The notes under the pieces: model-generated
Seen by the model: the letters and a program-made list of their open reading frames with translations, nothing else
The model's database searches: none
What the model was told of the DNA's origin: nothing
DNA from: Ricordea florida
Lineage: Eukaryota; Cnidaria; Anthozoa; Corallimorpharia; Ricordeidae
Assembly: GCA_949710005.1 (NCBI GenBank)
Contig: OX453273.1
Location: forward strand, 35,855,538-35,919,537
DNA: 64,000 nucleotides
Direction of reading: 5' to 3'
Program-made: the position numbers and the translations under genes
Part shown: piece after piece, positions 1-38,036 of the stretch
How positions within the stretch are numbered: position 1 is the stretch's first letter
Layout: each line of letters starts with the position of its first letter

Positions 1-92
1 CATGAATTTTTTTTTCTCGGTTTTCCTTAGCTGGATACATATAAAAAACGATTGTAACCTTCAATCGGTGTGGAAACGTTTTCAAACCTGAA
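1..92 (+). repeat. left terminal inverted repeat of element A
   Basis: Starts with a T-rich run after CATGAA, then CTTAGCTGG and ACGATTGTAACCTTCAA. The same blocks recur in the same order in the reverse complement of the right end, with ACGATTTTAACCTTCAA as the counterpart of the last block. The outermost ~15 bases are outside the window. Confidence 0.8.
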
Positions 93-289
93 TTTTTGCG
101 CTCTAAAAAGGGCTATTTTGCAGTCAAAATTGTCCCGGGGTCTGGGACCTAGTTCACTCCTTGCGACGGTCTTCGTGACGTAATTTTGTGTACACACAAG
201 TTGCAGAACGTGTTAGGCTGAGAGGGGAGTCAGTCATAAGCAAGTGCCACTCTGCTAATTCTATAGATTATAGAACGCTTTTCTGCGAA

Positions 290-1244
290 ATGTCCAGCGA
301 TTCCGAAGAAGGTACCATTTCTGAGTCTTATGGGGACTCAAGTGACCAAGTCGATTCAGGAGAAGAAATTGAAGTGGTTGGCCATGTTGAACCGTATGAA
401 GACGAACCTCTGGCAAGTGACGATGGCGACCATGAAGACGAGGAAGACGAAGCAGATGCTGATGGATTAACTCCAGCAGTTTTGGAGGCCAGATTCGAGC
501 GGCAAATAGCCATTGGTGAATGGTTAGTGAAGCTTTCTAAACATCATAATCGTGCTACTGTCAGATAAATATAGTATTTTTCTCGTTTTAGGTGCGAATG
601 TCAGCACTGCAGCGACCTTCAATTAGTTAGTGCTCTCGAGTTTCGTTGCTGTCGTGAAGTTCTTGTCGCCACGGCAAAGCTAACTTTCGATGGATCAATT
701 GAAAGATTGAGTTGTGTCACCCAACACGAGGACTACGAAGCCCTTACCAACAGAACTGTTCTGTTGCAAGTTGCACCCTTGTTGCGGAATAAGAATGGAA
801 GAAGCTACAAGCGACGAACTGACGTGACTGAAAACGAGTATGTATTGTTGAATTGTGATTGACTTTCTCTTCATTTTTGCACTTAAAACTTCCAACGCAC
901 TACACTTTGTTACCATTTACGTTCACTGTTGACGTGACTACAAGTTATTGATCTCTGCGAGCATCTTTGTCTCGAATGGCCGCTGCACTTCTCACTTCTA
1001 AACGAACATGAGAGATTGAAGGTTTGGACATATCACTTTGCACATCGTCATATTAATGGTAGCCCTGCTTTGCATTGATAGGTTCGTAAGAAGCGTTGCT
1101 TACAGATGGCTTGTACGGTGGATGTGTGGATATATGGGCTGGGATAACACAAGACCATTACCAGCTTGTGTCTATCATAACCTGAGGACCAAGTATCCAT
1201 CACACAACTCAAGAGGATATGCCACTGCACAGGAACGAGAATAG
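290..1244 (+). CDS. P2X7 ballast-domain-like protein, element A (3 exons)
   Basis: Exons 290-522, 592-837 and 1082-1244 join in frame to 213 residues. The start ATG at 290 was chosen because the element B homologue starts at the equivalent point before the acidic stretch. Residues ~1-70 are rich in Asp, Glu and Ser and contain a YEDEPLA motif. Then comes W-C-E-C-x2-C, FRCCREV, FDGSIERLSCVTQH and ALTNRTVLLQVAPLL; the last exon has YRWLVRWMCGYMGW and LPACVYHNLR. This is the cysteine-rich cytoplasmic domain known from the C-terminus of vertebrate P2X7 receptors, where it binds zinc. No transmembrane or channel part is present, so it is a free-standing domain, not a receptor. Its role in the element is unknown. 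Intron donors are GTTAGT and GTATGT; both acceptors are AG. An AATAAA on + at 1614-1619 could serve the 3' end. Confidence 0.88.
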
Positions 1245-2051
1245 ACTGTGCCTCCTTTTCCTGTGAAGAATTTTTGTGAAATTCGTGCCAAATATCAATC
1301 ATTGCTACAAGTAGTCAGAAACAGTGCCAAGTTTCCTTTACTATAGGAATACCCATAACTGATTCATGTGTGGTACATCTATTCATGTAGGTCATGTGTA
1401 TGACTCATGTTGGGAGAACTTGAAAATTCTTTGCAAGCAGTTTGTGTCCCTCATTACACTCTATCTTCTGTTTCTGCTGGATTGTTACATTTTCAAAATT
1501 TATTTAATCACTCCTCATGGTTAATTTTATTTTTAATGAAATGAATTCTAAAAACAACAAGGATTCCCCTACCTTCTCTTTAGGAAAGGCAAGTGATATT
1601 GTTTGAGACATAAAATAAATGTTGCAGTAATATAGATAATGCCAGTTGATTTGAATGTAATAACACAGCATAACATTGTGGTTAGTTCCATAACATCTTA
1701 AATACATACTCACACATATTATTGTGAGATTAATTTCCTGTGTTGTCCTCAACTATCTCCCAGACTGGGATAAATTCCTTTTCCAAGTAATGTTGGTAAA
1801 GTTCAAAGTTGTAACAACCTTTTCTCAAGGATCTCTTATGTACAATGTACCATAAAACACTCATGAAAAATACTTATGTTCATCACAAGGTAACTTGCAC
1901 AAAAAATAAGCATGTTCTACGTTTTCATATTGCCCAGAGTCAGATAATTTTATTTGTAAATGTAGGCTCGCACAAACAACTCATGGAAACAGGACAGCGC
2001 ACAGAATGCACAACTACAACAAAAAAGTCAGCACACATTCAGTATATGTGT
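1245..2051. other. 3' flanks between the convergent genes of element A
   Basis: AT-rich sequence between the two stop codons. It holds possible polyadenylation signals on both strands: AATAAA at 1614-1619 on + and its complement near 1949-1954 for the - gene. Open frames here look random. No transposase fragment was recognised. Confidence 0.5.
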
Positions 2052-3774
2052 TCAATTACACTTTTTCTTTCCTTTTGAATGCCCTCGTGCAGGCTGTTTT
2101 GGCTTCCTGCTAACTCGTGTTTTCTTAGAAGCCTTGGACTGAGAAGTTGGTTTTGCTTGTTGCATTCTCTCCTGCAATATATTCTGTTCTTCACCTGCAG
2201 AGACAGAATTACAACTTGATGTTAACTTACCAAAGTAAAAATAACACCATTTTTTTTATTTTTTACCTTATATTCAGTATCAGAACTTAACCAGGAAATA
2301 AAACTCCAATAATTTGTGTAAATCTTATCAATATACATTGTACAAGGGGATAGATTTTACCATCTGGGAATAGCTCAGTGCTGATCTTCTGCCTTTCTTT
2401 GTAGGACTTTACTGCCTCTGGTTTACTTGCTCTGTTGGGAAACTGAGTAGTTAGGGATTCAGGGGCCTTGGATGCGAATCTGTCAAATGTCTCCTTCAAT
2501 GTAGCCTTGGGCAAGCTGAACAGTAATTTCTTCAATTCCTCCACATAGTCTGCAATCAGAGTGACATTGATTTTTATTTTCAGTCAATGGATCTAGACAC
2601 TTGACTGTATCGCAAACCTTTACATGACTTCCATCAAATGGTTTCATAATAGTGTTATATCCTCTAAAGTATTGATCAAATGTAACTTCGAATTGTGTAC
2701 TCAGGCTGCAAAACTTAAACCTAATAAAATATACCAAGTTACTTACCATAGGTAGGTGGAGAAGCAACATCACGCACAACTTCCTCCCCAAGTTTGAACT
2801 TTGGATAAGATACTTTATAGTACTTTTCACCATTCTTTCCAGCCTGTGCCTCTCTTTGTACATTTTCATTGAAATGAAGACTTGCCAGGATATGTCTAGA
2901 AGGGAAAGGGGGGAAATAAACAAAACCATCAAGTTGGATGGTAACTTCTGGACCTTGTCAATTTACATGTACACTGGCAGCACAGGATATGTAATACAGC
3001 TTGGTGAAATTGTTACCTCTGTCCTGGTCTGAGGACAGATGAAAGTGGATGTAGGTAACCATTTTATCAAATGTCTTGTGTAATGCAGATGGCCCTACTT
3101 CTTATTAGCTACGTGAATAAAAAAATCGAGAATCAAAAGCTGGTAATTATGCAAGCTCAGGTTTTGTAATTGTATTCATAAAATATTCAGACAACCACGT
3201 GGTGATAAGAAGGGAACATTCATAGACGGAAAATGTCCAAAATACATTGCTTGCGAGTAATACCGTCAAAATATTGATATTATTCCAAAAAAGAAACCAA
3301 TCTATTAACTGACCCGAAAAATTTACGAATAAGCAGCAAGAAGTAAGAGTTATTTACGCTTATGCTCAGTTCACTTACTTGGCGTTTTCTTCGTTCCGTG
3401 AGAGTATCTGTTCTTTCGGGAACAACTGAATCCCTCGTAGGAATGGATCCTCGAATCAAAACTTTATTCTGCTTTGAGTGCTCGCCAAGATCAAGGGAGA
3501 TCTTTCGCGAATAGCACGACTCCTCGAAGTGCGCTGAACACAACGATGTGTATTTGGTGACACTGGACTCACGAAAATCGGCACGATGCCTTTGGACGAA
3601 TTTCACCCACTTATTTTGCACAACCGGATCCTTTGGAAACTGATGCATGCTGATTCCAACGGTATGAGAATTGTTCTTACAACTCGTATTATTCGGCGCT
3701 CCAGCAACGCAGTATCTTCCCCCTCTTTTCTTTTTACCGGAGCAAGCCTCACTGTTCGCCGCACTGTCGTCCAT
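2052..3774 (-). CDS. THAP-domain protein with long C-terminal module, element A
   Basis: Exon 1 (3774-3379) encodes a THAP zinc-dependent DNA-binding domain: CVAGAPNNTSC, GISMHQFPKD, WVKFVQRHRADF, LCSAHFEESCY. The family pattern is C2CH, but the first two cysteines are nine residues apart rather than two to four. Further exons read well at 2895-2747 (ILASLHFNENVQREAQ, YPKFKLGEEVVRDVA), 2549-2361 (DYVEELKKLLFSLP and an FPNRASKPE stretch) and 2194-2052 (Gln/Lys-rich tail, stop TGA at 2054-2052). These last three joins keep frame. Exon 1 ends in phase 0 (CGCCAA then GTAAGTG), but the 2895 exon needs two incoming bases. A 12-base candidate microexon at 3028-3017 adds PGQR in the right frame without solving this. 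So a further small exon or a frameshift lies between 3379 and 3028. The start at 3774 is the last Met before the domain. The function of the C-terminal module is not recognised. Confidence 0.75.
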
Positions 3775-3892
3775 GTTGGTTTCGATGCTTGTACACAACT
3801 TTACGTCACTCGAGAAAATCACGTGACATTTTGGCCGCGCAGAACAAGGGACAATTTCGTTCGCAGATAGCGCGTATTTTGAACTAAAAAAA

Positions 3893-3998
3893 ATGGTTTG
3901 GAAAATGTTTCTTCCTGGTTTGAAGGTTAAAATCGTCTTTTATACATACCAGGCTAAGAAACAACGGGAAAAAAAATTTCATGTCATATGCACTTTAA
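3893..3998 (-). repeat. right terminal inverted repeat of element A
   Basis: Reverse complement begins TTAAAGTGCATATGACATGA and then follows the left end block by block for about 90 bases. The TTAA plus AGTGCATATGA tip is shared with both ends of element B. Confidence 0.85.
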
Positions 3999-4803
3999 TT
4001 GAAATTACTATGGACATGCAAGCGCGGTAATGTCTAAGTGAGAACTCTTCTTTCCATGGAAAGAAAACCGTCCCCACAACGACATTCAGCCAGTTTAGGG
4101 ATATTTTCGGGCATTTTTCGTTTTTATTGAGAGATCTTTTCACAGCGTTGTATTTGTATTATTACATGGCGTACAATAAATTCTAACCCACTGCTGATGG
4201 TAATCAGGTTTTTATCCTGCGGGTAGCCAATAACTCCACGGCCGTGCAATTGATATATCAGCTAACAACTCTCGTCTTTCCAAGATAACCAACGAAAATC
4301 ACAGTCCAGTTCGCTGCGACGGTTCCCGGGTTTTCATTTAGCTTTAGTGCGAGAGAACTAAAAATAGCTGCATGCGTATTGTCTGGGCTCCTGGTATTGT
4401 GAGTTTGATCTACTCCTGCACATAGAGTGGCCATGGCAAAACTGAGTTGTGGATAGATTTTCAAACCCCATTTACAAAACGTACAAATTGTTACAGTTAT
4501 TGATATTAAAATGTCCATCAACAATTTGGAATAGTTTAAGAAATATGCGTCATACAGTTGAAGTAGCCGAGTTTGACAACAGGACTGACGAACAAACAAA
4601 CATTAAACGAATACTGTTTAATTCAGATTAGCTATTGGATTAAGCGCCCGTCTGCTTTAAATTTGGCACGATTTTAAGCCACGACATTGGTTCAGATTTA
4701 TCCAGTGCAGCAAAAGTTTTTATTTGATATTTAGAAATTTTAATTTTACGAAACCTGAATTTTCAAAGCCAAATTTAAAGTTACTAAATATCAAGGTAGT
4801 AAA
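3999..4803. other. intergenic, no gene seen
   Basis: Between element A and the next inverted-repeat element. Open frames on both strands are short and have no recognisable motif or splice structure. Confidence 0.4.
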
Positions 4804-5292
4804 CAGGGACACCCGACGACTGTTTTCTGTAACTGATAATATCTGTTCGGAGAAGCAAAAATTGCCTAGAATCTTCTATAGCTTGTGGAAGACTGAAAAT
4901 TTCTCGATGACCGTTCCATTCATGCACAATTCTCTTAGCATATATAATCAATTCCCTACAATTTTCTGAATTACTAGTTTAATTTTTTGCATTTCAGTCC
5001 CCAAGTTAGCCAATTTTTCATAGAAAACGTAAACTTAAAATTTTCGGATTCGAAAATTCGATGGAGAGAGGAATCAGAAAAAATTCTCACTTTCGTAAAC
5101 CTTAGAATTTTCGGGAAAATAATACAGTGGTGCCCTTGATTTCGAAAAGACTCAAGTTGCCCTAGGACGACCGAACGGATACAAATTTTATAGCGCCGCT
5201 TAGAATGCATTTCTAGAGACCTGAAAGTTCTCTGGATAGTCTGAAAAATGTTTTCAATGCATTTAGGAGGAAAGCGTCGTTGGGTGCCTCTA
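4804..5292. repeat. inverted-repeat element with CAGGGACACCC ends, 6-bp duplication
   Basis: The left end reads CAGGGACACCCGACGA; the right end is the complement with small changes (CGTTGGGTGCCTCTA). The flanks are AGTAAA on both sides, a 6-bp target duplication. No coding capacity; it is a short non-autonomous DNA element (MITE) of about 489 bp. A relative lies at 20856-21252. Confidence 0.8.
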
Positions 5293-5639
5293 AGTAAAGG
5301 AGAAATTAGTTCCATTTACCTCCAACATTCAACACATATTCTCATACGCAAGCTACAAAGCATTTTTCATCTTGGATCTCGTCCGCCGATAACATGAACG
5401 AGTTACATGAAAATTAACGTTTTACCTTAAGTCTTGCGTTGCCAAGAGGTTTGGCCTGGAGGAAAGTCAGACGTAATTAGTTACTTCCAACGTCAAGTTT
5501 AATGCCACAGTTTAATAGAACAATTAGTTGGGGTGAGTCTCACCCCAAGTAATTGTTCCAGAAGTAAAAACTTCATAACAATTTATAAATTGCGATTTAC
5601 AGGTAAACGTTAGAGCTGCAATGTCTGACGCAGATTTAA

Positions 5640-6281
5640 CTCGGGGAATTCAAGATTATAGACGAGAGAAGCACACAGGTAGCCTCGGGTTTCACTTTGT
5701 CAGAATTAAGTGCGTTCTCAAACTGGTTGCATGACGTATCGAATAACTTGTCACCCCCTAACATATCTAACTTAATTACTTACCAACCCAACATTCATTC
5801 ATATGAGACAAGATCATCTTCAAGACGCGACTATTTTGTTGAAAGTTCAAGATTAGATATACAAAAATAGTCATTTTCAAGAAATGGTGTTAGAAATTTG
5901 GAATAGCTTATCTTGTGAAGTGCGCCAGCTATCAATATACAATTTCAAAACTAATATTCATAATCTTCTCCTCCAGAAATATTTTAAAATATGATGATTC
6001 TATCGATTTGTGTGAGGCTAGGGAACGCAGCAAGCCGAGGTCTGAGACCTTAGCTTGTTCAGTTCTCTAGTCATATCTTAAAACGTTCTTTTATCCTTGT
6101 AAATGTGTATCGATGTATTTGTAATTAGTGTAGAATTTGAATCTCTTGCTCTCGTAATTTTTTTATTTATTTTATAATATGTGTGTTAACACTGTTAGCT
6201 TCAGTTTCCTAACTGTCGGCAGTGCATTTTTTTGTAGTTTCTGTAATAATATTGCATGAATAAAACTGGACTGAACTGGTT
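5640..6281 (+). mobile_element. decayed 3' end of a LINE-type retrotransposon
   Basis: Two frames give typical non-LTR reverse transcriptase C-terminal text: IHSYETRSSSRRDYFVESSR (5792-5851 region), then, after a stop and a frame change, LEIWNSLSCEVRQLSIYNFK ending with TGA near 5992. The 3' part ends in ATAAAACTGGACTGAACTGG with no coding content. It is 5' truncated and broken by stops. The exact 5' limit is uncertain. Confidence 0.6.
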
Positions 6282-7357
6282 TTTTAACGACTTTGAGCAC
6301 AGGCAGCCCGAGTTCCCGATTTGAAAGGGTTTATACGAAAATGCAATGGTATTGTTTTTTAGTCGAAGGAAGTTCATCCTTTTCCAATAAAATCGACTTA
6401 CTTTGTTCCTGTGGTGTATTCTGTGTTATCTGCCTGATTCTCAGGCCATTCAAAGGCGAATATATTATTAATACTTATAAGTTGGAAAATTCTCGTTCAA
6501 ATAAATTGTCGGTGATAGTTGAAGAGAGTTACGCGCAAAGGATTGCCATGAATGATTAATGGTTCTTCCGTTCGTGATTACCTGTTACTACGAGTATATC
6601 GCTGATACAGATAGAGCTACAGCATATCCGGCTCTCGCAACCTGTTGTCGGCCTGCTCTTGCTATTTTAATTTTAACTAGTTTGGAAGCGGTCACCATTT
6701 TACATTGTTGTTTTGTTTGTTTTTTTTTCTTTTTTTTTTCGTATAGCTAGAAAAAGTTTAAAGTCGAGTTGACGTGTTACATCTTGTGTTTGCGGTCACC
6801 TCACGGTCCGAATTTGGCAATTAGTTTTAACTAACAGATAAAACTGCATGAAGTGATATGAGAAGTCATGCGTAATACATACATAGCGCACACTTTTTGC
6901 GCCATTGCAGAAGGCATAAGGGTAAAGAAAAAGCTTTTTTCCGCATGTTTGAATTGAATAAGAAACAGGAGACATGAAGGAATAAAAAAACATTTGCACT
7001 AGAGTGGAGATAGGAAAGCTGAAAGCAGACTACAAGTTAGCTAACTGTAACATTCCTTTCCAATGATCGGCTGCAAGAGCTTGTATACATTCAGATGGTT
7101 TTATTGCAGCAAATAAACGCAATCAGGACGAAATATCATTTTTCTTCCAGTAGTTGTTTTTGGCAAGGGTCAAAATATAAGTTTTTTCAAAACTCTGGCA
7201 TGTGGAAAATACTTGTACGTAACGGAAAGCTGAATGTAATTTAATATTTAGGAGGTCTCCTCGTCGCTTTTTAAAATCTTTCTCTTTGTATTTTTTCTTG
7301 TGGAATAAATCAATAAACCTCCAGAAATATCAATTAACAAAGGAGCAAATTAAAATC
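6282..7357. other. intergenic and 3' flank of the potassium channel gene
   Basis: No gene recognised. It contains a T-rich tract at about 6719-6739. The - strand 3' untranslated region of the channel gene presumably occupies the right part. Confidence 0.4.
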
Positions 7358-10300
7358 TTAGCAACTAAACACTCCAAGACTAATTGTACTACCGCGCTTT
7401 CTGTTCTCATTTCTGTCTCCTGTGGTGTTAAGAGACCTCTCTTCCAATACGATGTCTTCTTCTATTGCGTCGAGATTCCGTTTTACAGACTCAGTTATTG
7501 GTCCATTTGTGTCTTCAATACCATCTTCCTGTACTCCATTTTTCTCGCATCGAGACTTTACTTTCCCATCAGAAGAACTGGCAGAATTATGCCTCGATGA
7601 CTTCTCTTTGAGAGATCTTACAATTCGCACGCTTACGCCATATTGTTCGAGTACGTTGTGCATTGAACAAAAAATGCTCGAGACGAAAGCTAGACCAACG
7701 AATGCTGACAGAATCAGTATATAATCTACGTTGTTTTTGAAACTGGGAAGATAGTCTCCGAACCCGATCGTGCTTAAGGTTATGAAGGTAAAGTAGAAAC
7801 ACTCCAGATATGTCCACTGCTGGTGCCTCACTTTAACTATCAGAGCGCACAGTGGAAGCAAGAAAAAGAGGGTAAAGGAAATGGTTGTTATTGCAACTTT
7901 AAGCTCCACTCGCCTGGGAGGTTGATTTTTTAAGACTCTCTTTTCCAAGTAGGTGATTAATTTACCAAGTTGTTCCGAAATCTTGTCCCCGACGGCCTTG
8001 AGAGTTAGACAGGTTCCAGGTATGCCTATTAGTGCATATATCATACAGAAAACTCTGCCTGGGACAGTTTTCGGTACGATGTTGCCATACCCTGTGTAAA
8101 GAATGTAAAGGGACATGAGATTATGCAGAAGATAACTAAGAAGATAACACCCAGAGGACTGAATCGAGAGGGCAAACCTCAAAGGTTAAGTGTAAGGGAG
8201 ATGCTTTGTTTAGAGGATGGGACGATAAACTATTTATGAACTAAATAACACGTTAAAGCTAAAACAATAATTAAGTATATATGAAATAAATTATATAATT
8301 GCACTGCGGTTGTAAATGTATTTGAAGATACGATTCGACTCTCGGAGTATTGACACAATTTTTACATGCTATGTTATTACATGCCGCGATGTCCAAATCT
8401 TCAATTCCTTTTCCTTCCGCGATGAAAATATCTGTTTATTTCTCGGGCTATCCAGGAGAACGTCCGAGGTTAAATTTCGCATTCAGTCACAAATCACACT
8501 CAAGCTAGTAAAGCGTATCTGCGAAGTTAACCAAAGTACATACTAATAGTTTCATTAAGTCGACGTGCATACGTCAGTGGCATTGAACGAAAATGGCGTC
8601 GTGGAAAATAAGCACGAATGTGGTGTCCAGTAAGCTCAAATCATACACAAATGCACACACCGTTCGCGGTAAACCCACACTAAAAGCTGACGAGTGTTTT
8701 CGGAACGGGTCGGTGCGGGAACTTTACGAGACTCATTTTACGAGCGAACATTTATGAGTGAACATAACGAGAATCATGCTATATCAATGGAGCTATTAAA
8801 TGTTAATCTAACAGAGAATCTACCAAATCATCATAGTATATGTGGACGTGATCGTGAATCCAGTAGAATAACAATACGAAGTTTGGAACTTCTGAGGAAC
8901 AAGAGCAAACTGAAAAGGTTAGAGAATTTGTCTTTTTACTGACGTATTCGTTCAAGTATACCGAAGTCCTCTAAAGTGCATTGTCATCTGAAGGTTGGAC
9001 TTGAAAACAGCACGAGAAAACAAATTTTAAATTTCTGTCGGGATGCTCTGGGAAAGTTCATCAAGGTAAAACAAATCTAAAGTATCGAGCTAGCCGGTAT
9101 TTGTCATTGTCTTCTTGTAACAGACCGATTACACTTTCCAAATCTCAGACCTACGTAGCGAATTACTGTAAATTCAAATTTAAAAAAAAATTGAGCACAC
9201 CTATTTAAGTTTCAAAAGAAAAAGTAATTCAGCCTAAATATATAGCAACCAGCTCTATTTTTGATTTTCACATGCCATTAAAATTCTTGCTCTTTAATAT
9301 TGTCTCAATTTTCCTTTGAATGAGGGTTCCTGATTTTCAGCCAAGGCAAAAATATTCAACACTCAGTTCAAGACACAACGAACATATTTCTCTTAGATTG
9401 CAAGAGGTAAGCAAGCAATCGAGCTTTTTAAATTCTTTTTTTGGTATTGATTGTATTTATCTTGATTTATTGAAGACAGAAGATCCCGCAAAACGTGTCA
9501 TTATTAAGAAGTAAATATCACTTATCACAGAATTAGCGTAGAATATAGATTGCAAAACTGACAGTCGCTTTTTTGTGAGGGAATTTTCTTACACAACGAG
9601 GGGATATGTGATTTATTTACCTCGTGCTGCGCCTCGGTGAATAAATCACATATCTATGAAGACTGCGAGCAGTCGGTTCTTTTCCTCAGACTGTCCGCGT
9701 GAGGTTATTTAATAATTATGCAAATGTCGGAAAGAAACGAAGAACCTACAGCAATAATACTAAGTCCTGCAAAAAGTTGGTTATTTGCTTGAGGAAAATA
9801 ATTCTTCCAGTCGTTGGCGAATGTGCATCAGGGCAGTGTTTGATTGTTTGAACTAACTATTAATTATTCACTAGTGCAACAGCCAATAAATGAGGCATAT
9901 TTGGGTCACATGCATTAACCTTGATACCCAATGGACACTTAGATGAAACGGTATCACGGGTTTGATCGGAGATCAAACATAATTTTGCTCTCAGATCAAA
10001 CACTTGCATTTTAAAAAGCATTCTTTAATAATTAACACATCGTTAACAACAATTCCAAAAATAACCTGAATATTAATCCATATAACTAACCTTGATTTTC
10101 AAAGAAACTACACCTGCAGTTACATTTTCGTGAATATCGGACCTCTGCAAACAACTTGACTCTTCTTTCTGTTTAATTAGTAATAGCAACTTCGGAAGTA
10201 CTAGTACAAGTGTTTGGTTCCAATACTGTGGATACTTCTCGAATTTTCTCATCGCTACCCTTTTCATACTTAAAGTGCATATGAAACGAAATTATATCAT

Positions 10301-13300
10301 TCCTCCAAATTATGATTTTGTGTACTTCATGTTCTCTGTTTTCCATTATCAAAATCCGTTTGCCTTGATCGACAATAAAACTGATAATTTTCGACTCTGA
10401 AAGTTGGTCTCCCGAGTTTAAATTTTGCGACATTTCCCGCGCGGCCAGAAAGGTGTGAGTGACGTCATTAGTTGTGTAGCAAGCGGTGAGGAAACATGGC
10501 GGAGAGTGGGAAAAAGAGAGTATCCGGAAAGTTTTGCGTGGCTGGTGGCCCTGGAAGAATTAGTTGTACAAATAGTAGCTTGAAACCAGGGATTTCGATG
10601 CACCTCTTTCCATCCCAAGATGTTTTAAGGAAGCAATGGACAAAATTCGTCCAAAAACACAGGCCTGATTTTAAGCCATCGAAAACTTCAGTGTTGTGTT
10701 CGGTGCATTTTGCACCAGAGTGTTTTTCGCGAAGGCTCGATATTGCTGGTAACAGCTCAGATGTCTCTACTAGTAGACGACTGGAAAAGGGATCGGTACC
10801 GACCATTGATGTAGCTATCAGCGAGCCAAACACACCATCTTTAACAAGTCGGGAGCGAAGGAAGGTGAGTGGTTTGGTTTGCACTACTAAGCGTCCTAGT
10901 CGACTTAAAGAGCTTAAATTACATCTTGTTTTTCATGCAGTAATGAGAACTGAAATGATTTACCATAACTCTTGGCCACATACTTTCTAAAACCTTTTTT
11001 TACGGCAGCTTGCGCTATAAATTTTATTTGTTTACGATGATTAGGCTTGTACTTTCTTCACCTTAGTGCCATAGATGTCCTTGCGTTACTGTTTTGAGGA
11101 GTTCAAAATGTATGTGCGTTACTGGTTGCATCAAATCCTCAATCTTGAATGTTTGTGGTGAATAAACTCCGCGGAAGACTTTTGTGTATCTTCAGCTGTC
11201 TAAAAAGTTGTAACTTTTTTAGATCGTTAGAGATTTCTTAACGCCGGTGAATGCTTCTGCTTCGCATTCAGCCAAGTTGGGTTCAACTGCAACAGCGGCC
11301 GATCGCGGTGAGGCCGAGTTGGAATCTTTGCCTGACACTCCAGAGGCAAACATTGATCGTAGCATGGGTATTGAAACTCCTGCCACTGTACCTGGACAAA
11401 GAGTTGTTCTATCAATAAGCATGACCCCTGACTAGTTTCACAGGAAAGAGAAGGAAAATAGAACCAAAATAAATTTACTTCTTAGCTGTTCAATTCCCTG
11501 CTTACACTGTACTAATTGCATATAACCGGCAACATAAGATCTTAGTGCCAGCCCTGAATATACCATTTATAAAGAGATTGTTTTCAGCATTCATATTATA
11601 AACAATACTGATGCATTTAACTGGAACATGTAATGTTATTCAATAAATAATAATATAATCCAACTTCTTCAATTAATTTATCTTTGTAAGTACTGTTTTG
11701 CTAACATATTGTCCTAAGTGCAGAGCAAAATAGCTTTGCCAGGGTAGGTTTGCTTAGCTCCTGTCCTCAGCTGAAGTATACCCTGTAGTATGGTGACTAG
11801 TAAATCTGGATCTGACGTTGTGATAAATGCAAGCTGGTAATGGTCTACAGTTGTCCCAGCCTAGATAACCAAAGATCCAGCGAATAAGCCATCGGTAAGC
11901 GGTAGCTCTGAGAAACCTGAAATGCACAGAAGAGAAAAAAAGAGTTATTCCATATGTATTTAACAGTCGTGATTACACGAAAATAAAACATTCCTTGAAG
12001 TGAGTATAAATTTAGAAAGCCTGCGAGCAGAGTCACTTTGATCTTACTGACCTCGGCTCATATCTAAGAATAATTGACGCATGCTAGTAGGTAAAATGAA
12101 AGAGCCAAATCCTACAACTCGATCCACGTCAAAAACACAACATTTATATCCTTACTCGTTTTCTGAAGTGTTGCCCCTACGTCGGTACGTTCTTCCATCT
12201 TTCCCTTTAAGAAGAGGTGCCACTTGTGTAAGAACTGCTCTGTTCGTAAGTGCAATGAAGTCCGGGTGCTGGGTAATACACGTGAACTGTTCAATAGTGC
12301 CATCAAACACAAGCTTTCCAATGGCGCAATCGACTTCCTTGCAGCATCTAAACTCCCGTGCGGACTCCAATGCAGCGTCATTGCAATGGTTACAGGAACA
12401 CCTAAAGTAGTCATTTCAGACACGGAATCCATAAGATGAATAACAACCATTTACGCCGAGTGCTTCACACACAGACATGGGCCGTGCATGCTTCATACAT
12501 GCAGTTCGTCGAACAGTCCTCTGTCGAGCTCAGTCGAGGCAAAAAAAAAAGAAAACGGAGGATGACTTAAATCTAGCTGTTCGATTTACAATAAAAACAA
12601 AACTTTCAGACATACCAGTTGCCGACTGGGATCGTTTTCTCGAATCGCTGTTCCAAAGTTGCTGGAATTAGTCCATCTTCGTCGGCTTCATCATTCTCAT
12701 CGAGGCCATCAAGAGAATCCTCGATCGTCGCCAAAGGTTCGTTCTGGTACGGTGCAATAGAGTCTGTTATGGTTCCTACATCTGAATCACTACCTTCTGA
12801 GTATTCTGTTTCATCTTCAGAAGAGGATGATGAAAAATTCTCATCGCTTTCAGCCATGTTGATCCACAGTATTTGAAGTTTACACGGCAACTCGTGTTTA
12901 TGACAGCAAATGCACAAGAGAGCAACACAACTAATGACGTCACCGGGAATCAACTGGAGCCCAGGCCCTTGTCGCACGTTTTGGCCTAAATACGTGTAAC
13001 TTCTATCGAAAAAAAAAAATATGTCGCGCCGTCCCACAGAACTTATTTTGCTCTCAAATTGTTTATTATATGATGAGGTTTTCGATTTAAGAAAAAAAAG
13101 AGGGGTTTAAATTCCGTTTCATATGCACTTTAAACAAAGAGTTAGAACGGTGACCAGTTTTATAGCTTATCAATTTCTCTCTATACCTGCATTAAACAAC
13201 GACGATGCACAAGTAACAAGAAGACTATGACTCGTCTTTCGCCATTTACACCTGCTGTCTTGCACATTTCAAAATCTCGTTACGTTTGTTGACACCAACA

Positions 13301-16300
13301 GGAGCTTTGTCAAAGCTAAGGGACGGACCATTAGAAAAGTGATGTAGGGGGGGGGGGGTGGGGAAAAAAAAAACAAAAAAAATTCATGCAGAAGGAAGGT
13401 CTAATTGTGACTCTTTCACACGTAGTAAAAAAAATTCGTGCAGAGGGGTTCACCTGAAAAAAAAAATTCCTGCACAAGCAGTGAGCGAAAAAAAAATTCG
13501 TGCAAGCTGAAAATTCCCCACTCCCCCCCATCACTTTTCTAATGGTCCGTCCCTAATTATAAGTTTCGACTAAGATGACCTAAAGTAGAATGCACTACAA
13601 TCTTTAACTTTAGTTATTACGAACCCAATATATAACTTGTAAATTTCCACAGCATATCACTCAGGTGACTGTTCTAAAGGATTAAAAATTTCAATTGTTT
13701 AACAACCTTGGGAATATACTTAAGGTCAGTTAAGCCCCCATGAAACATTTAACATGAATTTTCCTCAAACTTCGCAAAATTTGGATTTCTGTGTTCACCC
13801 CCTCCTAAACCATAAGTAAAAATAGACAGTGTTCAAAGACTTTGACCTGATAAGAATTCTCTTTCCCTATTTCCCCTCAGGCTAACGCAATTTACGTGTA
13901 ACTGGCTTTGTTATAACTTTCAACATAATTATGATTACTATTATTTATTTTATTTATTCGTTCACTTATTTATTTATTTTATTTTATTTTGTGTGCGTGT
14001 GCGCGTGTCTGTGTGTGAGCTTATTATACAAGCTCAGTTTATGTAGCCTGCCTAGAATAGCTCTGCTAACGGCGGGCTACAAAGGCCTTTTTCTCAGTAA
14101 TGTACAAATAAAGTGAATGTTGTTGTTGGTGTTGTTGTTGTTGTTTTATTAAATTGTTGAAGTTCACAATACTGATTTCAAATCCAGAATAATTCCTCCT
14201 CTTCTTGGTAGATAGCTTCCTTCCCCTCCTTCTTATGCTTTAAGTGCTGCGCGCTCGTTCGATATTTGAAATCACGCGTATGATTTTAGACCAAATTCAC
14301 GCTGGGAAATTTTACTGCCAAATGTGGCCAAGTTGAGTGCACAATATGTTGGTCAGCCGTAACAACCGACACAATACTTCATGAGTGTGACACTTGAAAG
14401 GCCATGTGTGTTTGGGCACTGAATATGTCTACGATTGAAGTATTAACCTTCCTGATTCGAACAAATTAAAAATGGCTGCTGTTGTGAGGCTACTTCATTA
14501 TGCATGCTGTACTTGAATTGTCTTGGGAAGTTCGCGTGCAAACATTTCTTGCTCGGCTACAACATGCGTAATGAAGTAGGGACCTGAGCGGAAATCATTC
14601 CGAATATTATCCTCGGTGCACTTACTGTAGGCCGGTCTGAACTATTGTCTCTGGACAATTTAGATAAAGGAAAAGTGGAGAAGGCTTTTGAAGACCTTAA
14701 AAATCTTGTGGAGCCAATTACAGAGCCATTTCGGACCATCGAGGTCAAAACATAGGCATCGCGTTGGCCAGTACGACCCCATGATTTAACGCAAAGCAGA
14801 GAGATGGTACAAGCAGTTTATGAGAAGATTATCGTTTAGGTTTGCTCCAAGAAGTCCTTGGAAAGTTTTTATAAAGGTGGAATCGCCTACAGAATTATTC
14901 CAAATTATACGGACACTTGCGTCAACCACAAACTACGGCTTATTCACCGGCGAGACCAAAAGAAACACAAGAAGGCTGTCTTGGTGTTTACTTCTTTTGC
15001 CAGGGCCGGTAAAAAGTCTTTTTAATAAGATTATGGGCACCTCTTACTCAGATGATGAGTTTCCCAAGAAGAAGTTCAAGAATAAGAAGAGAATTGAGGC
15101 TATTGTAAATGAGGAGAAGCAGTTTGGAATGACATACGATTTTGATTAGGAAATTTTACAATTTGATTTTTGTTATAGTGTTTGCAATATGCACAACTTC
15201 CCAATACACACATCGGTACTTCTGTAAGTTGTACTCATTTCCATGAGTTAAAGAGTACAAATTTAAACCATGAGCAATAACTTGTACTTGTTGATACAAA
15301 GAAAACATTTTGGTTCCTATTGTCTACGATGTTGTAGGTAACTTATAGTAGAGTGCACTCACTTTATCTGTGAAACAAATAATACTAGCTACTACTAAAT
15401 AGTGTTGATTAGACAATAGGAGACAAAGAAATTAGCATAATTTAACACCTATTTTGTACTGTTTATATTTCACGGATTAAGTGTGTGCGCTCTAATACAT
15501 TTATTTGTTTTGTTATAAGGTGCTCATGCTAAATTCATGAATTAAATATTACTAAAGATACAGCTTGCTAAACAGTGTAGAGTAAATACACTTAATTCCT
15601 GAAACAAACATAGTACAAAGTAGGTGATAAATAATGCTAATTTGTTTGTTCTCTATTGTCTCATCAACACTATTTATTGTAACTAGTAATATTTGTTTCA
15701 CAGATTTAGTGCTTCTACTCTAGCATAATTTAGTGCTATTTGCTGTGTAATTATACGTTCACTGGTTTAGAGGGAGCACTTAACCATTGTATATAAATAT
15801 AAACACAAGGAATGAGTCAAATACAAATAACTTTTATTCCATTAAAACTTGACACACAATTAAAGTCAAATACATAGATATTTTTTTTATAATCTCATAA
15901 TCGGTATATATTGAGTAATTAAAGATGCATTTAAAACATACAAACATAAAATAGTTTTGCATTATTCATTGTTATGATTTCCTGGTCAATAGACATAACA
16001 ACTGTTATTGATTGGTTATAAATAGTTAAAATCAGTTATCAATCAATTTTCCTTCTTTAGAGAAACAAAGTCAATTTATTTGAACTGTAAAAAAGTATTG
16101 GTGATAGTACTGCACTGTTTTTACTACAGTCGGTCACATTTCTTTTACAGTTTAATGTGAATAGAACAAGTCTATCTCAAAATTACTTTTTGGCTCTTTT
16201 TAGCATATTTGTACGCAGAGCTTTTGAATATTGATAGATAGATATATACTTTAAGTGGGTATTTTCAAATGAATAAATATAAAGTTAAAAAATAAAGTTA

Positions 16301-19300: not shown

Positions 19301-20289
19301 AAGTGAATTCTCTTCGGGTTTATCTGGCTTTGTGTTTAGTTGAATCTTTCTACAATGAAAAGTGGAGGGTTTTGAATTTGACAGTGGTCGAAAGGGTCTC
19401 AAAAATGATAACATTCCTACGTGAAAAGGGAAGAAACGGCATTTAATAAAAAAAAAATTCGTATATTCCAGAAAATACTCTTAAAAGAGTAAAGATTACC
19501 CTTGCTAAGTCAAAGCAACTCCTGCACGAATTCTGTCCTCGGAAATCGGTCACAAATTGGTTCTTGTTGAGTTACATGGTTTCCGCATACGATATTTATC
19601 TGGTATACAGCGGTTGGGAAACCTTTGCTAAATTAATATGCTGTCTGAAGCTCATTGCTGTTTGTGACAATGTAATATTCTGGAGCTTCAAATTTTGTTT
19701 AAAATCCTCAGATTCAAAAAAGCGTTCGTTGTAACCGCTGTAAAACCGAAAGCTTTGAGCGTACAAATGCCATAATTATAAGACGAACGTTTTGTTTGTT
19801 CAAAAGAAATGGAATATTACTTGCTACACTCTACTGTTTAAGTTTACAAGCCTCCTTGTTTTGTTTCAGTAGGTACTCTGTATACAGCGCTTCGAACTCT
19901 AACGTCAACGTTCTTCACAAAGTTTAAATTATTCTTGTTGTTGGGAACACGGCTCCCGCTTTCAATCTTATTTTAAGCAACTTACCTATTGTTGTGAGCA
20001 CAACCATGGCAAACAAAAAAGCGTTTCCATAATTCCATTCCAAGAAGTCATCGTTGCCCAAAGTCGTTGAAGGTAATGTTTTAAGCAACCTTTTGGCGTC
20101 AATTTCTGTTATGTTATACTTTTTCAAAATACTACTTCTAATGTTTTGGAAGTGTTGCATTTGCTGGACCTGATATGGACCTTCAATAACTTGAAATATG
20201 GCGGCACCGACAAAAACATAAGTCATGAATAACACTATTCGAACAATGAGAATCTGTGTGCTGTCAGAGATCTCCATTTCCACGCACAC
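7358..20289 (-). CDS. two-pore-domain (K2P) potassium channel
   Basis: Two coding exons, 20289-19986 and 8091-7358, join in frame to 345 residues. They are separated by an intron of about 11.9 kb. The join rebuilds the first selectivity filter across the splice: VVLTTIG in exon 1 and GYGN in exon 2. Exon 1 has helix M1 (ILIVRIVLFMTYVFVGAAIF), the extracellular cap and pore helix 1. Exon 2 has M2 (FCMIYALIGIPG), M3, the second pore with STIGFGDYLP, M4, and a hydrophilic tail rich in Ser, Arg and Glu. This 4TM/2P plan defines background K+ leak channels of the plasma membrane. The start could be Met at 20289 or Met at 20277. The donor is GTAAGT and the acceptor ACAG. The intron hosts element B, several MITEs and a decayed gene. 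The K2P subfamily cannot be assigned by eye. Confidence 0.9.
8593..9410 (+). pseudogene. decayed unknown gene fragment related to 40517-40951
   Basis: Starts MASWKISTNVVSSKLKS, then HTVRGKPTLKADECFRNGS, then a stop. The reading continues in another frame with LLNVNLTENLPNHHSICGRD up to a possible donor near 8918. The - strand frame at 40517-40951 has the parallel text HTVRGRPTLKDGVCNERIF, FRNGSFRELK and LANVSLESNQ. Further exon-like blocks follow: NSTRKQILNFCRDALGKFIK ending at about 9065 before GTAAAA, and about 9341-9410 between CAG and GTAAGC (RQKYSTLSSRHNEHISLRLQ). The family is unrecognised. It lies antisense inside the K2P intron. Confidence 0.45.
9602..9654. repeat. hairpin inverted repeat
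   Basis: Arms GGATATGTGATTTATTTACC and its near-exact complement enclose about 12 bases. It is probably the remains of a small foldback element. Confidence 0.6.
10496..11435 (+). CDS. THAP-domain protein, element B (2 exons)
   Basis: Exons 10496-10864 and 11223-11435 join in phase 0 to 193 residues. The THAP domain fills residues ~10-85: FCVAGGPGRISC, GISMHLFPSQ, WTKFVQKHRPDF, LCSVHFAPECF. The last C-x2-H and the HxFP motif are normal; the first cysteine pair has the same nine-residue spacing as in element A. Exon 2 adds a low-complexity Ala/Ser/Pro-rich tail ending SISMTPD. It lacks the long C-terminal module of the element A protein. The ATG at 10496 is 223 bases inside the left end. THAP proteins bind DNA sequence-specifically; binding to the element ends is an inference. 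The donor is GTGAGT; the acceptor follows a T-rich run. Confidence 0.88.
11436..11753. other. 3' flanks between the convergent genes of element B
   Basis: AT-rich, no open frame of note. AATAAA-like signals occur on + near 11466 and 11643. Confidence 0.4.
11754..12857 (-). CDS. P2X7 ballast-domain-like protein, element B (3 exons)
   Basis: Exons 12857-12616, 12401-12156 and 11916-11754 give 216 residues. Exons 2 and 3 are exactly 246 and 163 nt, the same as in element A, with the same phases, although the proteins share only about 60 percent by eye in exon 2. An acidic Ser-rich N-terminus with YQNEPLA is followed by W-C-S-C-x2-C, FRCCKEV, FDGTIEQFTCITQH, ALTNRAVLTQVAPLL, then YRWLIRWIFGYLGWDN and LPACIYHNVRSRF. 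All cysteines of the zinc-binding core are kept and there is no stop or frameshift, so the copy looks intact. There are no membrane segments. An ATG further upstream in the same frame (13037) was rejected because the region between is not protein-like and reaches the element end. Confidence 0.88.
13320..13553. repeat. Harbinger-like MITE, copy 1
   Basis: Terminal inverted repeat GGGACGGACCATTAGAAAAG, flanked by TAA on both sides (13317-13319 and 13554-13556). A 3-bp TWA duplication fits PIF/Harbinger. The interior is a series of A-runs followed by ATTCRTGCA. A close copy lies at 21742-22033. Confidence 0.85.
13914..14150. repeat. low-complexity TTTA, TG and TTG tracts
   Basis: TTTAT-rich, then GTGTGCGTGTGCGCGTG-type, then (TTG)n at about 14117-14143. 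An AATAAA at about 14105 precedes the TTG run, which could mark a retroelement 3' end. Confidence 0.6.
14490..14597. repeat. foldback element, diverged copy
   Basis: TACTTCATTATGCATGCTGT pairs with ACAACATGCGTAATGAAGTA and is followed by GGGACCTGAGCGGAAATC. This is the outer-arm order of the better-preserved foldback at 52365-52516. Confidence 0.6.
14590..15149 (+). pseudogene. decayed coding sequence of unknown family
   Basis: One frame reads IIPNIILGALTVGRSELLSL, then DKGKVEKAFEDLKNLVEPI to a stop at about 14755. The next frame reads RPHDLTQSREMVQAVYEKII, then a stop, then FYKGGIAYRIIPNYTDTC and KKAVLVFTSFARAGKKSF. A third frame gives the Lys-rich end DEFPKKKFKNKKRIEAIVNE, which stops at 15149. 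The composition is protein-like, but it needs two frame changes and has an internal stop. No family recognised. Confidence 0.35.
15150..17624. other. AT-rich intronic stretch, no gene recognised
   Basis: Very AT-rich from 15150 to 16650. Short open frames at 16652-16834 (-) and 17030-17380 (+) have no motif I recognise. The first is preceded by a plausible acceptor (TTTTTAG before GTGGCGTTG), so a small exon on - cannot be excluded. Confidence 0.35.
17625..17745. repeat. hairpin MITE, TAA duplication
   Basis: Arms of about 44 bases (AGCCCGGTTTAAATGTCG at left, complement at right) share CGAACTT and GCCGAATCTAATG blocks. Flanked by TAA on both sides, as expected for PIF/Harbinger-type MITEs. 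Confidence 0.7.
17746..19985. other. K2P intron, no further feature seen
   Basis: AT-rich. The open frames near 18146 and 18732 look random. No repeat boundaries were found by eye. Confidence 0.35.
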
Positions 20290-20855
20290 CCTGAAGGATG
20301 TTCATACCTCGCTGCGAGTCAAAACAATCCACAGAACCCTTGGGAGTTCCAAGTCTGTGGCTAATTGAAACGCCCATGAATATTTCATTTGAAGTGGCTT
20401 CCACACTGATCAATTTATTTCTTTTGCGCGTGAAAATTAAAACACCCGGCCGCGGAATAATTCTAGTCACGTAAAAAAGGGTGTCTGAGTGACAAAGAAT
20501 GAGAAGAAAATAGAAGCCTGCCGATGAAATGTGGGTCCTTTGATTACGAAGTGGACGCCTTTTTCTCTTTCAAAGTGTCCTACGATTCCATGTGAATGGA
20601 CGACTGCTTTTGTCCCTGGACAAGGAAAAAAGCGATCGCCACTCATTATGTGAAATTGGCCTGATGCTAGAAATGTTTATAAAAACAACGCGACGAATAT
20701 GGAGCCATCAATGAAAAAAATATTCAACAATGGAATTTCGCTAATTTACAAAGCTTTCCGCCGCTGACATTTCACGGAGAGGGGTAAACATAACAAAACC
20801 TGAGCAAACATTAACAGGAGTAATCCCGCCATTCAAATTCAACTATAGCACATTT

Positions 20856-22033: not shown

Positions 22034-23448
22034 TTATGCATTGAAGTATCCATTCCCATCAAACCGGGTGGGAAACACTTATACAGTTCTCGTGGTAAAG
22101 TTTGTTTTATGCTGAGCGGCATCATTTTTTTTAGGCTAGCACTGAGTAAGTATTTGACAGTAAATTAGACTGCGACTGAATCTCCTTTCCTCTTTCTTTT
22201 CGCTTTTTGAACAAGAAGCCTAATACATGAAGTCACGTCGGTTTGGGCGGCCAGCGACATACACACGTGGCTAAAGCCAGAAAGCGATTCGAGGCCAAAA
22301 AAAAATTAAGAAAATGGTTGCTCAGCAAATTCGTTAGTCTGGGCAGGTATTTCTTGGAGTTACAAATTTTCTGTCAGTAACTGGGTTGATTCTAGTTCTA
22401 GACCTGTGCTACTGCACCGTTTTCTTCTTATCATCTCCGATTTCTTATATGTAACATTTTTTAGCAGGGAAAGTGTAAGACCAAGCAGAAGGTAAACCCT
22501 TGCAAAGGACTTGAGCAGGAGCGAATCCGATTGGCTCCTGACCCGAGCAAATTCAGATGATGGGAACTGGGCAGCTGATTAATTGGGCAGTATTTTTGAT
22601 GAAACTGATTGGGGTTATTGAAAGGAAGGTTTTTTCAAAGGAAAGCAAAGAGTGCAGGGTTGAGTCAGCTTTATTTTGGGGACTGGTGACAGCAATAATG
22701 AGTGGAAAAGAAAAATCTTGATCATAAGTTTAAATTAATTCTCAAGCGCACGTTATGGATTCAAACCCGTAGTGGCATTGTATTCTTCCTACGCTGCTAT
22801 CATATATGATATATTTCGAACAATGTGTGCCTTATGTCTTTTTGACGATGTAAAGTCAGGTGGCAGTTATATTTCTTGCAGCTAATTTAATCGGGTTGTC
22901 GTCAGTGCTGCGACCCTTTGCATATACTTATTACAGATTTTCATTTGTGCTGGCGTCGGTTTGACGCTCCAAATCAGCTTCTTTATCCTTTTACGGTGCA
23001 AAACTAGCTCTGTGGCGTCAGCTCGTTTTATAACCGGATATTTGTGTTTTAATTTCCCACAAACGCAGCACATAAAGACGCGTTCAGTTCGGTCTCATGT
23101 TGAAAGCACCTTTAACAACTGGAAATAAAACATCATTAAATGACTATTTGGTTTTGTGCGGTTTAATGGGCACAGTAGGCCGTAAAATGTGGTAAAACCA
23201 GCTTTACCTAAATTGTTTTTCTATTAATCCAGCATTGTTTTCACCTTAAAAACAATGCTTTCAAACCTGTCCACATTGAACCTCACTGTGAAATAGTTTT
23301 GAGCGTCTCGTGAGATGAGCTCTGTTGTTTTTATCAGCAAAACCTGTGTGGTTACTTACTTGTTTAGAAGAACAGGTTTGAGATCAGTAATTATAAACAA
23401 CACCTGCTCAATCAAAGCAATCTAAACATGGCAAACCGCGTAACTTAC
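22034..23448. other. downstream of the partial receptor, last exons not found
   Basis: A - strand frame at 23073-22882 (VCGKLKHKYPVIKRADATEL and a Lys/Arg-rich end) could be the cytoplasmic tail of the receptor at 23449-24110, but no splice join in frame was found. Otherwise no gene seen. Confidence 0.3.
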
Positions 23449-24110
23449 TACGACGATGAAGTAGCAGCTTTTGGATGGCGATTAAGCAACAGAATTATTA
23501 TAAGCAAGGGTATTGTCATAGAGTAAACGCAATAGTACATTCTGTAAGCGATGTAGTTCGGCGAATTTGCAAGCCGACAAAGCAGTCTTGTTGGATTCAC
23601 TTGAAATATCCTCCAGTCAATCAAAAATGCCAGGCAAACCACGGCAGTTGACAACACCACAACTACGAAGAATATCAAAGTCTGCTTTTTACCAATAGAA
23701 TCGAATTCCTCACTGGAACAAAACACGACCCAGCAGCGATGTAATAAAACAAGACACAGAACCAATAAACTTGTGCCCAGAAAAAGCAATGTTAAAACTC
23801 CAGTTGTTTTGCATAATAGATCCCCGTATTTCCATTTTAGTTCTAACAACGAAGCGACCATCAATGGCATGGTGATTATCGCAGTAAACATGTCCGCCAC
23901 AGCCACGTATAGCAAGGTGATATTCCCCGTATCTGACTGGTTGGGTTTTCGAAAACTTAACACACAAAGAAGCCCGTTGCCTATTAAGATCGTCGAACAC
24001 ATGCCAATAATGCCGGCGGCTTCGAGAGACAGACCCATTGGTGAGACATCGAAGGCTTCCATTTCTTCATCGCGTTCAGCAGGAACATCGTTTGAATATG
24101 GATCGCTCAT
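23449..24110 (-). CDS. orphan rhodopsin-like GPCR, first coding exon (TM1-TM5)
   Basis: The exon starts at Met 24110 and ends at a donor (TA then GTAAGTTA) in phase 2, after about 220 residues. It has five hydrophobic helices: TM1 with STILIGNGLLCV (the GN motif), TM2 with LLYVAVADMFTAI, TM3 after the conserved Cys in DLLCKTTGVLTLL, TM4 FFVVVVLSTAVVC, and TM5 with SMTIPLLIIILL. At the end of TM3 the usual DRY is replaced by LHRCW. Helices 6 and 7 with NPxxY were not found downstream on this strand. The gene therefore either has a distant last exon or is truncated. The ligand is unknown. Confidence 0.7.
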
Positions 24111-25097
24111 TTGTATGTTGAATTACACTTGTCGATATTCTCTTATTTCAGGCTGTTTTCTCACCAGCGGAAAAGGACGCCCCGTATTTTGTGTTAAATT
24201 AACCTTGTCCCTGCTATCGTTTCACGCTTTAATAAATCTCAATATCACAAGTGAGCATCGGGCAACACGCGACTATCCGGGCTTTACAGCTCAACTTGAA
24301 TTATTTATCTGTTTTGAAAGAAAGTAGGCTAAATGCCACATACCTGGGAAGAATTCAAGATAAAACCTTCAATTGGATTTCATCAAACAAAAACTTTCTT
24401 TTCTGTTTCTAATGATGGAGAGAACTAATGCCGTTTATCTCTCGCCCGAACAAAACACCATGTTCACCGGCGCCGTTTAGACAGATCTCTTGTAGCTTTT
24501 CTGTACTTGATATGCTGTGATTCACACTCACTTTTAGCTTCATTTCTCGGAGAGAGCTGCAGCGAAAACCTGGTTTCATACTGACATCGCGCCGCAAGAA
24601 ATGAACTGATGTAAGAAAGAAACGCTCCGTTTGACTTTAAAATTACTACGACATCTTTGGCAGTTGAAACTTATTAAGTTAAATTTTATTTTGTTGGATT
24701 CATTGACCGTAACTGTCACCAGTCACATGGCGGCCATTTTGCACAGGACCATAACGATCTCGAGGCCACTTAGCTACTGACCAACAGAACTATTAAAAAG
24801 GAAAATAAAAAACAAACAAACAAACAACAACAAAAAAACTGCCTGTTAACCATGGATCAATTCAATAAAACGTACAGTTGTAAGTGTCTCTATTGTTTTA
24901 GAGTTTGAAAACGAAAGATACACTTGTAAATTACACTTGCAAAATTTAACTAAGTTGATTCCATCTTTTCTACAACTGGAAGAGTTATTGTTTTCTGTTC
25001 TCCAAAAACCACGAACTTCCACAAAGTGTTTTTCCACATGGAATTAAGAAAACATATCGGACCGAGTTTCACCCCATCATAATTCCATATTTTTAAT
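24111..25097. other. upstream of the partial receptor, no gene seen
   Basis: Contains an (AAAC)n stretch near 24808-24838. No exon or family recognised. It should hold the receptor's 5' region on -. Confidence 0.35.
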
Positions 25098-26566: not shown

Positions 26567-26608
26567 TCTTTGTAAACATTTCTTGAGAGTGAATGGGCTG
26601 CCCGAAAG

Positions 26609-27252
26609 CGATCTCAAGGAATACATCATCAACAACGTAGGGTTCATAACATATTATCGAGTCCAAACAGTTTTAAAACGATCTCAAGGAATACATCATC
26701 AACAACCTAGGATTCATAACATATTATCGAGTCCAAAACAGTTTTAAAACGATCTCAAGGAATACATTATCAACAACCTAGGATCATTCATAACATATTA
26801 TCGAGTCCAAAACAGTTTTAAAACGATCTCAAGGAATACATTGTCAACAACCTAGGATTCATAACATATTATCGAGTCCAAAACAGTTTTAAAATGATCT
26901 CAAGGAATACATCATCAACAACCTAGGATTCATAACATATTATCGAGTCCAAAACAGTTTTAAAACGATCTCAAGGAATACATTATCAACAACCTAGGAT
27001 CATTCATAACATATTATCGAGTCCAAAACAGTTTTAAAACGATCTCAAGGAATACATTGTCAGCAACCTAGGATTCATAACATATTATCGAGTCCAAAAC
27101 AGTTTTAAAATGATCTCAAGGAATACATCATCAACAACCTAGGATTCATAACATATTATCGAGTCCAAACAGTTTTAAAACGATCTCAAGGAATACATCA
27201 TCAACAACCTAGGATTCATAACATACTGTATTATCGAGTCTAAAACAGTTTA
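26609..27252 (+). repeat. minisatellite, nine ~71-bp units in a three-unit higher order
   Basis: Units begin CGATCTCAAGGAATACA at 26609, 26679, 26750, 26824, 26895, 26966, 27040, 27111 and 27181. Lengths are 70-71 bp, with 74 bp in the two units that carry GGATCATTC. Variants (CATCATC, CATTATC, CATTGTC, TGATCTC) recur every third unit. Confidence 0.95.
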
Positions 27253-28663: not shown

Positions 28664-28811
28664 ACACATAAGGCGACATCAAAAAACAACCACATGAACT
28701 ACATGCAACAAGTCCATTAAACAGAACTGCACGTAACAAGTCCATTAAACAGAACTACATGCAACAAGTCCATCAAACAGAACTGCACGTAACAAGTCAT
28801 TAAACGGTCCA

Positions 28812-37982: not shown

Positions 37983-38025
<43 letters not shown>

Positions 38026-38036
38026 CACGCAAAAAA

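Follow-up and report, generated by a model that had tools for sequence, protein, structure and literature searches.

Evidence for two internally deleted Kolobok transposon families that carry a P2X7 ballast-like gene in Ricordea florida

In a 64,000-nucleotide stretch of the Ricordea florida genome (contig OX453273.1, positions 35,855,538 to 35,919,537; hereafter the window), two elements, A and B, are almost certainly internally deleted, non-autonomous Kolobok transposons of the Kol0 lineage. Both carry a gene for KolX, a free protein with a domain like the P2X7 ballast, together with the remains of a transposase gene. The link between KolX and P2X7 was already published in 2022 (PMC9587614), and A and B belong to the kind of element described there. 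What is new is the two non-autonomous families and their recent spread. The features of A are listed below by window position.

1-3998, no strand: element A, very probably a non-autonomous Kolobok (Kol0), 4.0 kb; its predicted first 15 bases (TTAA and AGTGCATATGA) precede the window
1-144, plus: left terminal inverted repeat, inner part; 72% against the reverse complement of 3840-3983
290-522, plus: KolX exon 1 (Pfam PF20478; 213 amino acids over three exons)
592-837, plus: KolX exon 2, with WCEC..C, CC and the sixth cysteine of the zinc motif
1082-1244, plus: KolX exon 3, with the seventh cysteine and a C-terminal QERE before the stop
2052-2194, minus: last transposase exon, with the stop at its end
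2361-2549, minus: transposase C-terminal exon DYVEELKK..
2747-2895, minus: transposase C-terminal exon HILASLHFNEN.., its acceptor out of phase with the THAP exon
3379-3774, minus: THAP exon, the first of the transposase gene, with a phase-0 donor
3840-3994, minus: right terminal inverted repeat, terminating in TCATATGCACT
3995-3998, no strand: right-hand TTAA target-site copy; TTAA is at both ends in copies L049, L050, L051, L053 and L054

A first-pass annotation made from the sequence alone had described 1-3998 as a TTAA-type DNA element with long inverted repeats, and this is borne out by the TTAA tip and a 144-bp repeat. Positions 1-144 match the reverse complement of 3840-3983 at 72% over 145 columns (E 1e-16), and the local score of 88 compares with a best of 66 among 4942 random window pairs and of 31 among 1000 shuffled pairs. 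The 15-base tip at 3984-3998, TTAAAGTGCATATGA when read inward, recurs exactly at 10270-10284 and 13119-13133, whereas 0.0004 exact copies are expected from base composition. KolX of A lies on the plus strand in three exons with GT-AG introns and an intact frame of 213 amino acids, and its match to P2RX7_C (PF20478; E 1.1e-8, 35.7 bits, cut-off 23.5) confirms the earlier reading of a free P2X7-ballast protein. The minus-strand gene begins with the THAP exon (PF05485; E 2.9e-14, 54 bits, cut-off 23.9) and converges on the KolX gene. The element had been said to hold exactly two genes; the convergent, intron-bearing P2X7-ballast-like and THAP genes are there, but three further minus-strand exons, which form the C-terminus of a transposase, were missing from that count.

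The THAP gene had been taken to encode an accessory protein, but it is the 5' exon of a Kolobok transposase gene whose DDE core has been deleted. No transposase had been seen in this copy and, consistent with that, the core exons D1, D2 and E of the genomic loci L078 and L079 gave no match in A or B as tblastn queries (E 0.01). The donor of the THAP exon of A is in phase 0 and the following exon requires phase 2, and a direct join runs into a stop after nine residues. This phase mismatch indicates that a piece is missing between the two exons. A weaker donor downstream of the THAP exon, picked out by eye, could restore the phase. An Rfam scan of the window gave no match.

Element B is complete within the window.

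10270-13133, no strand: element B, the second non-autonomous element, complete and flanked on either side by TTAA; identical to L081
10274-10293, plus: left inverted repeat, matching the right repeat at 19 of 20 bases
10496-10864, plus: THAP exon of the transposase gene
11223-11435, plus: linker exon of the truncated transposase gene, ending in a stop
11754-11916, minus: KolX exon 3
12156-12401, minus: KolX exon 2
12616-12857, minus: KolX exon 1 (216 amino acids over three exons)
13110-13129, minus: right inverted repeat

B has TTAA and AGTGCATATGA at both ends, and its two genes are convergent as in A. The KolX proteins of A and B are 57% identical with matching intron positions, the THAP exons 49%, and PF20478 scores above its cut-off in both. 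All seven cysteines of KolX A (C79, C81, C84, C97, C98, C119 and C189) are invariant in KolX B. Silent sites of the KolX genes are saturated and the nonsynonymous divergence (dN) is 0.42, which indicates that A and B are old separate families and did not arise by local duplication. Their deletions differ. A has lost the exons between THAP and the C-terminus, and B everything beyond the first linker exon.

The missing core is found in relatives elsewhere in the genome, which was searched over 537.8 Mb in 48 contigs; the searches scored the best candidates, for example 150 of 413 for KolX and 150 of 227 for D2, so that the counts are lower bounds and negatives apply to the candidates scored and listed. 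Exons 2-3 of the minus-strand gene of A match at least 122 genomic places at E 0.001 or better, and the D2 exon at least 168. In L077/L078, L079, L089 and L090, counterparts of these A exons follow exons with a DDE signature (SDRHRG; DIWH or DQWH; CLEGFH). Since DDE exons stand beside A-type C-terminal exons in these relatives, the THAP gene of A is what remains of a transposase gene after loss of the core. The D1 exon (GDGR) was found in L079, L089 and L090, and none was seen in L078. The first-pass annotation had proposed a search for full-length copies and a transposase between the same ends, and L089 and L090 are longer relatives that have a transposase within similar ends. L089 (202-6331) has THAP, D1, D2, E (CLEGFH) and C-terminal exons and a convergent KolX between 33-bp repeats with TTAA on both sides. 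Its D1 and D2 exons are 99% identical to their L079 counterparts (GDGRFDSMGH; SDRHRG, DQWH), an identity through which its D2 signature was assigned. L090 (about 810-7929) has THAP, D1, D2, E, C-terminus and convergent KolX in the layout and strands of A, with 149-bp repeats at 93%, TTAA on both sides and AGTGCATATGA at one end. In both elements the ends read AGTGC or AGTGT, with TTAA beyond them. L056 is a decayed relative whose left end is 91% like that of A and which carries DDE exons at the position of the gap in A; its D1, D2 and E exons just precede a stretch 94% like A's own intron, and its E is changed to K. L078 and L079 were also considered as complete elements and rejected, because L078 shows no D1 exon and has a truncated third KolX exon, and because L079 is missing about 0.65 kb, the second C-terminal exon included, that is present in its sister L089.

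Further genomic copies had been predicted, and at least eight other copies of A were found, two of them partial in the sequence read. The left 400 bases of A have 12 genome matches, at least eight of which (including the window's own) are at 100%. L049, L050, L051, L053 and L054 are full length, 99.1-99.8% identical and have TTAA on both sides, and the flanks of L051 and L053 match at 99% over more than 5 kb, so that these two represent one duplicated genomic stretch. L052 aligns with A over 1-1942 only, L048 (490-6737) is an A-family element into which a Penelope-like insert is nested, and another copy, on contig 3 (C3:11066066-11069468), is absent from the left-end matches. AGTGCATATGA stands at the predicted left-end position in all seven other A copies read (L048-L054), preceded by TTAA in six (L051 and L053 being one duplicated site) and by TGAA in L048. 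B shows no mismatch to L081, on another contig, over 2864 of 2864 bases, whereas their flanks are 29-32% alike; L081 has TTAA on both sides. Other copies of B measure 3.43 or 3.58 kb, and in L082 and L084 the linker and a portion of the D1 exon remain. The exact 15-mer TTAAAGTGCATATGA occurs 42 times in the genome, compared with six times for its reversed control. Eleven inward pairs spanning 2.86-4.01 kb account for 22 of the 42 and the other 20 are single ends; the A of the window is not among the pairs, because its left end lies outside the window. The same 15-mer matches 38 stretches of viral contigs. These sequences show that A and B elements have moved recently, and because they lack a core they would have needed help from elsewhere.

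The extra 2.2 kb of L048 was considered as a transposase core and rejected, as it is a nested Penelope-like retroelement (3499-5727) with RVT_1 just above the cut-off, GIY-YIG below it and 14-bp direct repeats at its flanks.

Kojima and Bao (PMC9587614) describe Kol0 families of Kolobok that encode a DDD/E transposase and KolX, and give the Kolobok termini as 5'-RR..YY-3', which differ from those of piggyBac. A THAP domain is known in Kolobok transposases (PMC6004289). A and B resemble Kol0 elements of the Kolobok-1_XT type, which have cnidarians among their hosts, in TTAA duplications, RR..YY termini and the combination of a DDD/E transposase gene with KolX, and differ in lacking the DDE core. 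The 4-bp TTAA duplication was found in B, L049, L050, L051, L053, L054 and L081. The termini are AG...CT in A, B, L078, L079 and L090, the right end of A being read in the window and the left end in its copies. An N-terminal THAP domain (PF05485) is present in A, B, L078 and L079. The DDD/E signature with C/DxxH is present in L079, L089 and L090 (GDGR, SDRH, DQWH/DIWH, CLEGFH) and absent from A and B themselves, whose core is deleted. KolX with its seven-cysteine P2X7 ballast domain, the mark of Kol0, is found in both A and B. A similar case is that of the internally deleted P elements, some of which encode repressors such as the KP protein (PMC7776569). These are likewise non-autonomous and keep their ends and part of the transposase gene, but they belong to another superfamily, and A and B additionally keep KolX. 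A repressor role like that of KP is conceivable for the truncated THAP product.

A and B were placed in Kolobok by TTAA, termini, domains and signatures, and in Kol0 by the published description of its features. Several points weigh against this classification. The A copy L048 is flanked by TGAA instead of TTAA on both sides. The Pfam Mutator transposase PF20700 matches the D2 exons of L079 (E 1e-5) and L078 (E 1.3e-4), in both cases below the curated cut-off. Among the matches listed there is no full-length close relative of A or B (at least 90% over the length), and the nearest element with all parts, L090, shares 73% of KolX exon-2 residues with A. L089 and L090 are known from separate exon matches and are putatively autonomous, and the linker region of L089 holds 0.36 kb that is absent from L079.

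Other explanations are far less probable. The first-pass annotation had considered a domesticated pair, that is, host genes for a THAP and a ballast protein that merely lie between old inverted repeats. In its favour, both A and B have an intact KolX frame, and the saturated silent sites with the dN value indicate long purifying selection. However, selection in an autonomous lineage accounts for the dN value, the THAP gene is a broken transposase gene, and KolX is broken in the A copy L051 and the B copy L084. The pair is neither single-copy nor immobile, since near-identical copies with TTAA on both sides lie at other sites and B and L081 are identical at two sites. Domestication is therefore rejected as the main reading and is very unlikely. 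A self-sufficient system, in which the truncated THAP protein and KolX mobilise the element without a DDE transposase, is just as improbable. The recently amplified families do hold just these two genes, with KolX in 11 of 11 exact-ended elements and D2 in none among the matches listed. Yet Pfam assigns neither protein a domain of a nuclease or transposase, this genome also harbours DDE relatives whose ends are similar, and at consensus sites the THAP exon of A does not join the remainder in frame. The least probable alternative, to the point of being negligible, is a piggyBac element. PiggyBac likewise duplicates TTAA, and a passage in section 12 of PMC9587614 favours this reading, but the proteins it describes lack most of the seven cysteines that A and B retain. 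The proteins tested gave no Pfam match to a piggyBac transposase, the longer relatives, L089 and L090 included, bear a THAP-DDE transposase with DIWH/DQWH, and the AG..CT termini of A and B show the very distinction from piggyBac given in that paper.

KolX has been likened to the P2X7 ballast fold with its seven cysteines, and Kol0 has been proposed as the source of the ballast in P2X7 and Nanor (PMC9587614). The earlier suggestion that A bears on the origin of the P2X7 tail is thus relevant, though it was already in print in 2022. Rump (2020, PMC7016195) found the ballast domain spread across Metazoa, and the word stem 'transpos' is absent from the text of that paper; it also reports a tick protein that fuses a 'TAHP' (presumably THAP) domain to a ballast domain. 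The P2X7 tail and Nanor share the zinc-cysteine ballast domain with KolX (PMC7016195, PMC9587614), but they are host proteins, in P2X7 joined to an ion channel, whereas KolX is a free transposon protein. The P2X7 ballast bears GTP/GDP (guanosine tri-/diphosphate) and dinuclear zinc sites (PMC9859053), and R546 and R578 of P2X7 are the two arginines kept in invertebrates (PMC7016195). These two residues of the GDP site correspond to R163 and R195 in KolX A and are both present in KolX B, in an alignment with P2X7 that is not significant. Against the Protein Data Bank (PDB), phmmer with KolX gave no match, and a two-sequence KolX profile retrieved P2X7 alone, at E 4.5. Because these searches were weak or empty, the homology of KolX and P2X7 rests on Pfam. 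The C-terminal transposase exons also had no match in the PDB. No relative was found in viral contigs with KolX, THAP or the C-terminus, or in genome contigs and phages with KolX. Among the titles listed in literature searches, none concerned KolX-bearing, DDE-less families.

A full-length element comprises two convergent genes, a transposase (THAP, linker, DDE core with the DxWH signature, C-terminus) and KolX. A transposase from another Kolobok copy would bind the AGTGC... ends, excise A or B and integrate the element at TTAA. The most likely role of KolX is that of an accessory protein in this process. It might be a zinc- and guanine-nucleotide-binding cofactor or partner of the transposase, a guess based on the GTP/GDP and zinc sites of the ballast, the counterparts of R546 and R578, and the requirement of P element transposase for GTP in strand transfer (PMC7776569).

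Among the 11 exact-ended pairs, all have a KolX exon-2 match and none has a D2 match among the matches listed. KolX is intact in nine of them (L049, L050, L053, L054, B and L080-L083) and broken in L051 and L084; L051 holds most of the KolX differences among A copies, in one scrambled patch. Ten A copies were found from the THAP end (at least 86%), eight with KolX, that of L051 being broken, and all seven B copies found in this way have a KolX exon-2 match. A D2 exon lies within 10 kb of 23 of 64 KolX exon-2 loci, by a count that used 68 D2 rows, and 22 of the 23 are convergent. Seventeen of these 22 pairs are within 3.1 kb, and the remaining five, 5-8 kb apart, may be separate elements. By eye, a non-convergent D2 match was also noted within 10 kb of a further KolX locus (C3:25662456). 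Loss of the core with KolX present in every exact-ended element of two recently spread families would fit a preference of KolX for its own DNA. It is conceivable, although rather unlikely, that retention of KolX is purposeful and that the protein works chiefly on its own coding DNA, supplying the part of a divided transposase that binds zinc and guanine nucleotides, a part taken by GTP within the P element transposase. In that case the tail of P2X7 would derive from a transposition cofactor that was captured. Among the A copies found from the THAP end, however, L055 is cut and L057 is without KolX, and among the B copies the KolX match is incomplete in L085 and has a premature stop in L084. 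Retention was counted structurally over few events, and the changes among B copies show no clear selection, so that purposeful retention is kept as a guess.

A third KolX family is represented by L087 (2104-5719) and L088 (1035-4673), which are 98.5% alike and 3.6 kb long, with ends TTAA AGTGCCTATGA or AGTGCCTACGA. Of KolX they retain exons 1-2 and part of exon 3, together with one transposase C-terminal exon. No THAP or DDE match was found in them, and two of their other open frames, when tested, had no Pfam match above the cut-off. Elsewhere in the window, Ion_trans_2 exons lie at 7358-8185 and 19924-20301 (minus), the second below the cut-off. They read like parts of one two-pore potassium channel gene, and if they are one gene, element B would lie in its intron. 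The window also contains two rhodopsin-type receptor frames (7tm_1; 23448-24122 and 50710-51609, minus), a 0.6-kb direct repeat at 90% (28078-28672 and 47175-47789), a tandem array of roughly 70-base units (26605-27251) and two long palindromes (15339-15732 and 37931-38086).

Our study provides independent confirmation, within one genome, that a P2X7 ballast protein is carried in Kolobok transposons, convergent to the transposase. The elements form a natural deletion series that shows which gene was lost and which was retained, and this series is useful for probing the role of KolX.

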